In this document: piece by piece, positions 9,414 to 12,593 of the stretch
How positions within the stretch are numbered: position 1 is the stretch's first letter
Layout of the letters: the number at the start of each line of letters is the position of its first letter
Assembly (NCBI RefSeq): GCF_037996645.1
Contig: NZ_JBBMXV010000001.1
Span: forward strand, 252,168 to 316,167
Length of the DNA: 64,000 nt
Reading direction: 5' to 3'
DNA from: Halalkalicoccus tibetensis
GTDB taxonomy: Archaea > Halobacteriota > Halobacteria > Halobacteriales > Halalkalicoccaceae
Notes under the pieces: model-generated
Database searches by the model: none
Seen by the model: the letters and a program-made list of their open reading frames with translations, nothing else
Told to the model about the DNA's origin: nothing
Program-made: the position numbers and the translations under genes

Positions 9414-10319
9414 ATGGCACCGTCCGCACGTTCGCTCGGCTCGCGCGTCTACGAGAACCTCCTCCTCCGCGAGATCGACGACGGACCGGCCCACGTCGCC
9501 GTCATCCAGGACGGCAACCGCCGCTACGCCGAGAAACGCGGGGCCGAAACGACCGACGGCCACCGCGCCGGCGCACAGACGACCGAACGGGTCCTCGATT
9601 GGTGTGAGGAGCTGGGCATCGAGGAGCTCACTCTCTATGCTTTCTCGACGGAGAACCTCGATCGGCCCCGCGAGGAGCGCGAGGCGCTCTACGACCTGCT
9701 CTGTGAGAAGCTCCGGGAGTTCGCCGACGCCGACCGGGTTCACGACGGCGGCGTGTCGATCCGCGCGCTCGGCGACCTCTCGCTGCTGCCAGAGCGGGTC
9801 CAGGAGGCGGCCCGCTACGCCGAGCGCCGGACCCGTGACTACGACACGTTCGTGCTCAACATCGCGCTGGCCTACGGCGGCCGGGCCGAGCTACTAGGGG
9901 TAGCCCGCGACGTCGCCGGCGCGGTCGAGTCCGGCGAGCTCGCCTCCGAGGAGATCGACGCCGGGACGATCGACTGCCGGCTCTACGACGACGAGGTCCG
10001 GGACGTCGACCTGATCATCCGCACCGGCGGCGACGAGCGCACCTCGAACTTCCTGCCGTGGCACGCCAACGGCAACGAGGCGGCGGTGTTCTTCTGTGCG
10101 CCCTACTGGCCGGAGTTCTCGAAGATCGACTTCCTCCGGGCGGTCCGTACCTACCAGCACCGCGAGGCCTCCTGGCAGAACACGAAGACCCAGCGCGCGC
10201 TGGCGCTGGTCGGCGCGCTCTCGGACGTCGACCTCCCGCAGGCCCGCGACGTCCTCGACGGGAACGCTGACGGCGAGAGCGACCCCGCCCGGGAGACCGC
10301 CGCCCCGATCGAGCAGTAG
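9414..10319 (+). CDS. uppS: cis-Prenyltransferase (undecaprenyl-diphosphate synthase family), catalytic type
   Basis: 301 residues. It condenses isopentenyl diphosphate onto an allylic primer with Z geometry to make the polyprenol carrier for glycan assembly at the membrane. Seen: region I HVAVIQDGNRRYAEKRG with catalytic Asp33, LTLYAFSTENLDRP, and region V LIIRTGGDERTSNFLPWH...WPEF. The tail after about 275 is an acidic extension. It converges on a second family member 273 bases downstream that lacks the region I motif; the two may act together (inference). Confidence 0.9.
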   Translation: MAPSARSLGSRVYENLLLREIDDGPAHVAVIQDGNRRYAEKRGAETTDGHRAGAQTTERVLDWCEELGIEELTLYAFSTENLDRPREEREALYDLLCEKLREFADADRVHDGGVSIRALGDLSLLPERVQEAARYAERRTRDYDTFVLNIALAYGGRAELLGVARDVAGAVESGELASEEIDAGTIDCRLYDDEVRDVDLIIRTGGDERTSNFLPWHANGNEAAVFFCAPYWPEFSKIDFLRAVRTYQHREASWQNTKTQRALALVGALSDVDLPQARDVLDGNADGESDPARETAAPIEQ

Positions 10320-10335
10320 ACCGATCGGAACCGGC

Positions 10336-10604
10336 GTCGCTTCGCTCGCGACGACGTTCGGACGGTGAGCGAAGCGAACCGACCGTCCGGGAGGCTCGTA
10401 CGAGCCTCCCGTGACTTGGACCATCGTCCGAACTTCGTCGGTCCTCTCACTGGCGCTCGCTACCCGACGACGGTTGGACTAGCGTCCGAACCACCGGGAA
10501 GCCCGCAGAAGCTTCCCGTACTTCGGACGGTTCGCGTCGCTCACCGTCCGAACCGCCGAAAGGCTCCCTCCGTTCGCCTTTCGTGATTCGGCCTAGCGGC
10601 CGAA
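10336..10604. repeat. Array of inverted repeats between convergent uppS genes
   Basis: At least six stem-forming elements are packed here. CGGACGGT pairs with ACCGTCCG (10359-10366 and 10382-10389). A perfect 24-base palindrome follows (10388-10411, half-site CGGGAGGCTCGT). CGGGAAGC pairs with GCTTCCCG (10495-10502/10511-10518). TTCGGACGGT pairs with ACCGTCCGAA (10522-10531/10543-10552). CGAAAGG pairs with CCTTTCG (10557-10563/10577-10583). TTCGGCC pairs with GGCCGAA (10587-10604). About three degenerate units can be discerned, each with TCCGAACC, a GGGA(A/G)GC-type stem and a GTGATTCGG-like trailer. The last stem covers the 3' end of the minus-strand gene. A bidirectional terminator cluster or a dispersed repeat are both possible. 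Confidence 0.75.
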
Positions 10605-11201
10605 CCGCCGGCTTCGTTTCTTGTAATCGAGCACGGCCCTGAGGTAGTCCCGCTTTCTGAAATCGCGCCAGTTGACGTCGGTGAAGTAGAGTTCGGCGTA
10701 GACCGACTGCCAGATCATGAAATCCGAGAGCCGTTCTGCGCCCGTCTTGATCAGCAGGTCGGGCTCGTCGGGGAACACCAGCTGGGCCTCGATGTCGGCG
10801 TCGGTGATCCCGTCGGGATCCCGCTCGCCGCGCTCGACCTCGCGGGCCAGCGCCCGCACCGACCGCGCGAACTCGCGCTTGCCGCCGTGGCCGATCGCGA
10901 TCCGGATCGGGGCGTCGGCCTGCTGGGTGTCGTCGGGCCCCCGGACGTCGACCCGCCGGGGCGCCTCGAGCTCCGCCAGCTCGCTCACGAGGGTGGGCGC
11001 GGCCGCCGGATCCAGCACGCTCACGTAGACGGTCACGCGGTCGGCGTCGTACTCGTAGGCCCACTCGAGGACCGATTCGAGGGTGGTGTAGGCCCCGCGT
11101 TCGAGGAGGTCGCGCTCGGTGATCACGATGGCGACGTGTTCGGGGAGCGCGCCGTCATGGCGCCGAACCCGGCTGGCGAGATAACGGTCGTACAGTCCCA
11201 C
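10593..11201 (-). CDS. cis-Prenyltransferase homologue lacking the catalytic DGNR motif
   Basis: 202 residues from a GTG at 11201 (VGLYDRYLASRVRRHDG). The family fold is clear: EHVAIVITERD, then a C-terminal LIKTGAERLSDFMIWQ, YAELYFTDVNWRDF and YKKRSRRFGR that match region V. Where catalytic members have DGNRR, this protein has ITERD, so the Mg-diphosphate-binding Asp is absent. It may be a non-catalytic partner subunit, as Nus1/NgBR is for eukaryotic enzymes, or have another role. A longer reading from 11270 exists; the GTG is preferred because GGCTTACGGG lies about 26 bases upstream of it. Confidence 0.8.
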   Translation of the reverse strand: MGLYDRYLASRVRRHDGALPEHVAIVITERDLLERGAYTTLESVLEWAYEYDADRVTVYVSVLDPAAAPTLVSELAELEAPRRVDVRGPDDTQQADAPIRIAIGHGGKREFARSVRALAREVERGERDPDGITDADIEAQLVFPDEPDLLIKTGAERLSDFMIWQSVYAELYFTDVNWRDFRKRDYLRAVLDYKKRSRRFGR

Positions 11202-11285
11202 ACTCCCCCTCTCGCGGGCGAGCCCGTAAGCCTCACGGCCCCGTTTCGGAACGGGTAAGTGGCCGACCACGAAACCGGGGCCGTA

Positions 11286-12593
11286 GTGACCGGACGAGTC
11301 CGGCGTGCGGGGGCGTTCGCGCTCGTGGGCAGCCTCTCGCTTGCCGCGCCGCTGCTCGGCCCCGCGGCGTTCGTCCCCTTCGCCGCCGTCGGCCTGCTGG
11401 CCGCACTCGTCATCGACGAGGGGCGGGCCTTCGACCTCTTCGCCCGCCCCGGCGACTACGAGGAACGGACCCTCTACGGGCTCGCGGGCTTCTCGCTCGC
11501 CGCGACCGCCCTCGCGTTGCTCGTGATCGTCGGCTTTCCTCCCGAGCTGTTCGCCGGGACGGTCTGCCTGCTCGCCGGCGGCAACCTCGCCCAGCAGGCC
11601 GTCACGGCCCGCACCACCGACGATCTCCCGACGACCGCCGGCTTCGCGACAGGGGGCTTTCTCGCCGGGCTGGGCGCACAGCTCGTCGTCACCCCGTTCT
11701 CGCTGGGGGTCGCCCCCGCCGCGGCGGCCTTCCTCGCGGCCTGCGGCGCGCTCATCGCCGCCCTGCTGCGCGCGGTGCTCTACCAGCGCGACGACCCGCT
11801 CGTGCTGCTGAGCGTGGGGCTCGTGCTGTGGGTCGTCTCGGACCTGGGGATCGTGACCACCGGCCTCGAGGTCGTCGGCGCGATCGCGGTGACGGCGCTG
11901 CTCGGCTACGTCTCCTACGCGCTCGGCACCGCCTCCATCCCGGGGATGGTCACCGGAATGTTGCTCGCGCTCGTCACCATCGTCCTCGGGGGCTACGGCT
12001 GGTTCGTCCTGCTGATCGCCTTCTTCGCCATCGGCGGGCTCTCCTCGAAGTTCCGCTACGACCGGAAGCTCGCCCGCGGGGTCGCCGAGGACAACGAGGG
12101 CGCCCGCGGCAGCGGCAACGTCCTCGGCAACTCAGCGGTCGCGCTCGTGGCGGTGCTGGGCTACGCCGCGACGCCCGACCCCCTCGACGTCCCCCCAGAG
12201 CTGTTCTTCTTCGCGTTCGCGGGCGCGATCGCCACCGCGATGGCCGACACCCTCTCGAGCGAGATCGGCGGCGTCTACGACGACCCCCGCCTGATCACGA
12301 CCGGCGAGCCCGTCCCGCCCGGCACCGACGGCGCGGTCACCTGGCAGGGCGAGCTGGCCGGGTTCGCGGGCGCGGTGGCCGTCGCGATCCCCGCGCTGTT
12401 CCTGTTCGAGGCCATCGGCTCGCTGGGGGCCGTGCTGATCGCCGTCGGCGGAGTCGCGGGCATGACCGCCGACAGCCTGTTCGGGGCCACTGTCGAGAAC
12501 CGCTGGCTCGACAACCAGGGCGTGAACTTCCTCGCGACGCTGGTCGGCGCGCTGGTCGCGGTGGGGCTCGCGGCGCTGGCGGGGCTGTTCTAG
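11286..12593 (+). CDS. DUF92 family integral membrane protein
   Basis: About 435 residues from the GTG at 11286 (TGRVRRAGAFALVG); a GTG at 11259 in the same frame is the alternative. It is hydrophobic throughout, with about ten membrane helices. The C-terminal half holds the family core: GLSSKFRYDRKLARG, RGSGNVLGNS, ATAMADTLSSEIGG, GTDGAVTWQGELAG and GMTADSLFGATVENRWLDN. DUF92 is related to plant VTE6 phytyl-phosphate kinase and to archaeal membrane CTP-dependent kinase-like proteins, so a prenyl or lipid phosphate role is plausible, notably beside cis-prenyltransferases. Its stop overlaps that of dnaG by 4 bases. Confidence 0.85.
   Translation: MTGRVRRAGAFALVGSLSLAAPLLGPAAFVPFAAVGLLAALVIDEGRAFDLFARPGDYEERTLYGLAGFSLAATALALLVIVGFPPELFAGTVCLLAGGNLAQQAVTARTTDDLPTTAGFATGGFLAGLGAQLVVTPFSLGVAPAAAAFLAACGALIAALLRAVLYQRDDPLVLLSVGLVLWVVSDLGIVTTGLEVVGAIAVTALLGYVSYALGTASIPGMVTGMLLALVTIVLGGYGWFVLLIAFFAIGGLSSKFRYDRKLARGVAEDNEGARGSGNVLGNSAVALVAVLGYAATPDPLDVPPELFFFAFAGAIATAMADTLSSEIGGVYDDPRLITTGEPVPPGTDGAVTWQGELAGFAGAVAVAIPALFLFEAIGSLGAVLIAVGGVAGMTADSLFGATVENRWLDNQGVNFLATLVGALVAVGLAALAGLF

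Follow-up and report, generated by a model that had tools for sequence, protein, structure and literature searches.

The locus

Two convergent genes coding for members of the cis-prenyltransferase family, here designated A and B, are located in the window, which is the whole stretch of 64,000 nucleotides of Halalkalicoccus tibetensis DNA that was analysed. The features of the locus are:

9414-10319, plus strand: subunit A, cis-prenyltransferase, 301 aa, with DGNRR intact, C-terminal RXG absent and a helical C-terminal extension
9510-9524, plus strand: DGNRR codons of A, for the catalytic Asp and diphosphate-binding Arg residues, assigned from the sequence
10320-10592, no strand: convergent gap between A and B, with a large imperfect palindrome
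10593-11201, minus strand: subunit B, diverged and presumably non-catalytic homologue, 202 aa, GTG start at 11201, stop at 10593, C-terminus RRFGR
10593-10610, minus strand: RXG tail codons (RRFGR) and stop codon of B, predicted cap for the active site of A
11259-12593, plus strand: DUF92/PF01940 integral membrane protein (TIGR00297-like), divergent from B

The convergent arrangement given in the original prediction was confirmed; A is on the plus strand, B on the minus strand, and 273 bp are between them. The full DGNRR motif claimed for the first protein is present in A, the ITERD sequence of B stands at the position of QDGNRR in A, and the C-terminal region V was confirmed to be kept in B, where both LIKTGAERLSDF and WQSVYAEL were found. 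For B, the mechanical open reading frame extends to a GTG at 11270, and the GTG at 11201 was used as the start. In Pfam, A was matched by PF01255 over profile positions 1-216 (E 6e-68) and B over positions 109-219 only (E 1e-27), and the cut-off was passed by both. The NCBIfam polyprenyl diphosphate synthase model TIGR00055 accepted A with 233 bits versus a cut-off of 109.55, whereas B remained under this cut-off with 90.6 bits and was not accepted. The closest named homologue of B is the one from Halalkalicoccus paucihalophilus, with 85% identity.

The gap between A and B contains a perfect 24 bp palindrome (10388-10411) inside the larger imperfect one, and RNA folding of the gap gave a z of -8.24. 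A second copy of the palindrome was not found in the same genome. The palindrome is possibly a two-way terminator.

Complementary loss of the DGN and RXG motifs

For human DHDDS/NgBR, it was described that the RxG C-terminus of NgBR extends over the interface and contributes to both substrate sites, touching a DHDDS loop with E81, N82, K84 and R85 in addition to R37 (PMC7573591). A point which the original prediction did not contain is that an RXG tail is kept by B, in the form RRFGR, and is absent from A. The motifs were followed in an alignment to E. coli UppS of 154 A-type, 167 B-type and 8 MM_0014-type sequences, derived from genomes of the phylum, both within and outside the class to which the window belongs. 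The aligned rows are sequences and not independent genomes, and some species may be represented in both the named and the unnamed collection. A-type and B-type sequences were sorted by whole-length profile scores, and not by the tail alone.

In the A-type sequences, D26, G27, N28, R29 and R30 are invariant wherever the row reaches them (152 or 153 rows), and DGNRR was identified in 152 of the 152 sequences complete at that position. Also S71, N74, R77, R194, R200 and S202 are each present in 154/154, and RXG, that is R/K242 with G244, was found in none of the 154. The DGN motif, for its part, occurs in none of the 167 B-type sequences; two rows align D and N at columns 26 and 28, yet are without the motif. 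Here, the tail is retained, with R239, R241 and G244 in 167/167 each and position 242 occupied by R in 165 and by K in 2 sequences, and in all 167 the [RK]XG is followed by exactly one residue to the C-terminus.

At the DGN position, the commonest motif of B is VITERDLL (90/167), and SETDLL, SDADLV and MITGRDLA are variants in other rows. The UppS segments 33-43, 77-84 and 95-114 are missing from most B rows, and with them the donor-site residues R39, H43 and R77. From the IPP site, K/R194, R200 (127/167) and S/T202 are kept in most B-type sequences, and E213 was found in 167/167.

The residues of DHDDS receiving the tail have conserved counterparts in A, with E81, N82, R85 and R37 corresponding to E73 (153/154), N74 (154/154), R77 (154/154) and R29 (152/152). 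For R38 of DHDDS, which is involved in donor binding beside the tail, the counterpart is R30 (153/153). The counterpart of K84, a further tail contact, is not conserved.

Occurrence and gene organization

Among the 116 genomes sampled from the class, exactly one B was identified in every genome and at least one A in 115, with 121 A genes in total; the genome without A (G072) is a draft assembly in 120 contigs. In five of the 116, A outnumbers B. A and B are located within 10 kb of each other in 90 genomes, convergent in all 90, and within 1.5 kb in 76. A larger distance on one contig separates the genes in 15 of the 116 genomes, and 10 others have them on different contigs, which is a point against a heteromeric enzyme.

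For the other classes of the phylum, 55 genomes were picked from 163, with all six genomes without a match included. Both genes were found in 45, neither in 6, A only in 3 genomes (83-89% complete) and B only in 1. Of the pairs on the same contig at a distance of up to 10 kb (coordinates read by eye), 16 are convergent, all within 4 kb, and in one genome (G241) A and B share a strand, with 9.5 kb between them. One family (f16) gave a PF01255 match in 0/5 sampled genomes (G122, G131, G140, G149, G156), which are 75-91% complete. If this absence is real, the glycan carrier would be made there without any cis-prenyltransferase of the PF01255 family. A divergent member with PDGHRRY replacing DGNRR was observed in genome G002 (L212, 614-1999, minus strand), where it is the third PF01255 match (E 2e-29).

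The genome of the window itself contains three A and one B. The two additional A paralogues (L001, 1405-2349, contig C3; L002, 1327-2262, contig C6) are 55 and 57% identical to A, are both without RXG and are located on low-GC contigs (GC of 0.48 and 0.45 versus 0.685). No further B accompanies them, and the one B in the window may serve them as well. A Pfam scan around these copies, covering two stretches of 20 kb with ten proteins each, did not reveal glycosylation genes. On public plasmids, an A-type sequence is present on pMETEV01 of Methanohalobium evestigatum (L243), the sole archaeal record among the matches listed, which were 40 of the 109 with A and 20 of the 110 with B.

A DUF92 gene is arranged head-to-head with B in 74 of 80 named loci, and two distant genomes also gave a DUF92 match next to B. 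The phytyl-phosphate kinase VTE6 of plants belongs to the DUF92 family, which suggests that the neighbour might be a prenyl-phosphate kinase with a connection to the carrier pathway. A literature search on the role of DUF92 in archaea gave nothing apparently relevant. The gene is regarded as linked to B and is not claimed as a component of the enzyme.

Predicted structures

Both subunits match the cis-prenyltransferase fold, by fold matches in the PDB and by PF01255. The single-chain AF2 model of B reached a pLDDT of 89 and a pTM of 0.85; the tail and the region around residues 151-180 are of low confidence. The match of this model to NgBR (6z1n_B; Z 15.0, rmsd 3.9, 180 aligned, residues 1-202 to 80-293) is tied with the match to UppS (Z 15.5). 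The model of A matched DHDDS (7pb1_A, Z 29.2) and bacterial UppS (Z 29.0), which also is a tie; its C-terminus consists of a long helix, 237-269, followed by a helix at 274-286, without a short tail. A membrane anchor was not found in B by hydropathy, the top 19-residue value being 1.14 versus 2.41 in the DUF92 neighbour. Over the B-type sequences, the top values range from 0.5 to 1.7.

Comparison to known systems

In Methanosarcina mazei, MM_0618 and MM_1083 were reported to form a heteromeric enzyme with C45-50 products (PMC8131916, citing Emi et al. 2019). In a Methanosarcina-type genome of our sample (G221), the PF01255 proteins are A, B and one resembling MM_0014 (E 3e-138 to 7caq), with no other, and therefore the pair of A and B corresponds as a whole to the pair MM_0618/MM_1083 by elimination. 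The haloarchaeal pair is, by elimination only, probably orthologous to these proteins. Both systems belong to the same phylum, and in M. mazei the two PF01255 paralogues of the same A and B clades, again assigned by elimination, occur beside one of the MM_0014 type. The class studied here differs in that most genomes carry the pair tail-to-tail. An MM_0014-type third enzyme was not seen among those extra matches of the class genomes that were examined.

The human enzyme hcis-PT (DHDDS/NgBR, 6W2L/6Z1N) is described with a catalytic subunit which, like A, contains DGN, is without RXG and has a helical C-terminal extension (PMC7573591). NgBR resembles B in that the Asp is absent, the family similarity is restricted to the C-terminal half, and the chain ends with RXG plus one residue. 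However, B is without the N-terminal membrane anchor, and its C-terminal half is much more UppS-like: by profile comparison, which is not a tree, B matched UppS with E 2e-35, DHDDS with 3e-24, NgBR with 1e-10 and Nus1 with 6e-5. An assignment of B to the NgBR subfamily was rejected, since the anchor is absent and the sequence is nearer to UppS, and the likeness to NgBR is claimed for the working mode only.

In yeast, where Rer2 or Srt1 combine with Nus1, several catalytic paralogues may share one non-catalytic subunit, as they may here. Nus1 is reported to have Asn at the position of the RXG Arg (PMC7573591, PMC7839719), in contrast to the Arg in 165 of the 167 B-type sequences. The bacterial homodimeric UppS shares the fold with both proteins, the C-terminal half with B and the DGN motif with A, but carries DGN and RXG in a single chain, whereas here they are split over two chains. 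A description of a heteromeric enzyme in haloarchaea was not recognised in the open-licence literature searched, which is weak evidence of absence.

Origin of the pair

B forms one clade, both in a tree of 81 rows (90/56) and in a tree of 49 rows from which the longest rows were left out (100/100), and the same is true for A (99/93 and 99/91). Since B is one supported clade and present as a single copy in each of the 116 class genomes, the pair is not due to chance. As A and B are each one clade, the split most likely arose once in the phylum and was inherited by descent.

Human DHDDS was placed beside A (97/91, and 97/88 without the tail columns), in a tree which included only one eukaryotic and eight bacterial sequences and no Asgard or other archaeal phyla. 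In the AU test, two other placements of DHDDS were not rejected, one with B (p 0.118) and one with the MM_0014 type and the bacteria (p 0.107), so that the link between DHDDS and A was dropped as an established result and is kept as a hint, DHDDS being tentatively sister to A. It is possible, though we consider it rather doubtful, that the split into an RXG-less catalytic and a tail-donating protein predates the eukaryotes, with DHDDS inherited as an archaeal A-type protein that was already partner-dependent, and the human dolichol enzyme as a direct descendant of this kind of enzyme.

The proposed heteromeric enzyme and its alternatives

For the original prediction of a heteromer of a catalytic and a non-catalytic homologue, all sequence-level predictions hold. 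It is supported by the complementary loss of DGN and RXG, the near-perfect co-occurrence, the conserved linkage and the fold matches to NgBR and DHDDS, as well as by the retention in A of most residues that would receive the tail and by the heteromer reported in the same phylum (PMC8131916). Points against it are that B is closer to UppS than to NgBR in sequence and no closer to NgBR in fold, that the anchor of NgBR is absent from B, and that the K84 counterpart is not conserved in A. Very probably, A and B form a heteromeric cis-prenyltransferase for the precursor of a dolichol-phosphate-type carrier, in which A catalyses the reaction and the RRFG tail of B completes the site of A. From the sequences, the pair is best read as an obligate heteromer, B capping the active site of A as in DHDDS/NgBR and MM_0618/MM_1083. 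A would bind the allylic primer, Mg2+ and IPP and carry out the chemistry, but, because its RXG tail is lost, would not be able to close its own active site. B, without a donor site and parts of the tunnel, would pair with A via the dimer face usual for the family, and its C-terminal RRFG tail would reach over the interface into the active site of A. The composite active site that had been envisaged should thus be read as asymmetric, with the substrate site provided by A and only the capping tail and the dimer face provided by B. The product would be a polyprenyl diphosphate, the precursor of the dolichol-phosphate-type glycan carrier. For H. volcanii, C60 dolichol phosphate has been reported (PMC10821996), and this is a likely end product.

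Alternatively, A might be an active homodimer and B a protein of its own, such as a regulator or one that binds lipids, with ancestry alone being shared. MM_0014 is without RXG and was nevertheless reported to be crystallised as a homodimer (PMC8131916), so the absence of RXG alone does not require a partner, and the class genomes with more than one A per B also fit an independent A. However, the RRXG tail is among the most conserved positions of B, and the known role of this tail is to complete the active site of the partner. For a protein whose own donor site is lost, such strict retention of the tail has no other explanation, and the co-occurrence of A and B is almost perfect. An independent B is considered unlikely.

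Still less probable is that B is an active enzyme for another substrate, with a rebuilt active site in which ITERD would serve as metal ligand. Most B rows have a well-conserved TERDLL, and residues of the IPP site are kept in most of them, together with the invariant E213; but R39, H43 and R77 have been lost with their segments from most B-type sequences, and the motif drifts in other rows, unlike a catalytic motif. The loss of the catalytic Asp and of the donor-site segments would also agree with a decaying duplicate without a role, an explanation that is scarcely credible for a gene retained as one copy in every class genome, forming one clade over many families and having a strictly conserved tail.

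Implications

Protein glycosylation in haloarchaea needs a glycan carrier lipid. The heteromeric enzyme proposed to provide its precursor is of a kind already known, and the pair is spread through the Halobacteriota genomes sampled. As far as the searches show, the strict complementarity throughout the phylum is new, as is the hint of DHDDS being sister to A. It is implied that genes of this phylum annotated as stand-alone UppS code for proteins which are probably inactive alone. Changes in the RXG tail of NgBR are reported to cause human disease (PMC7573591). Provided that the heteromer is obligate, human DHDDS/NgBR would have a simple soluble model in the haloarchaea, among them the tractable Haloferax volcanii, and the origin of the eukaryotic heteromer would become testable by archaeal sampling.
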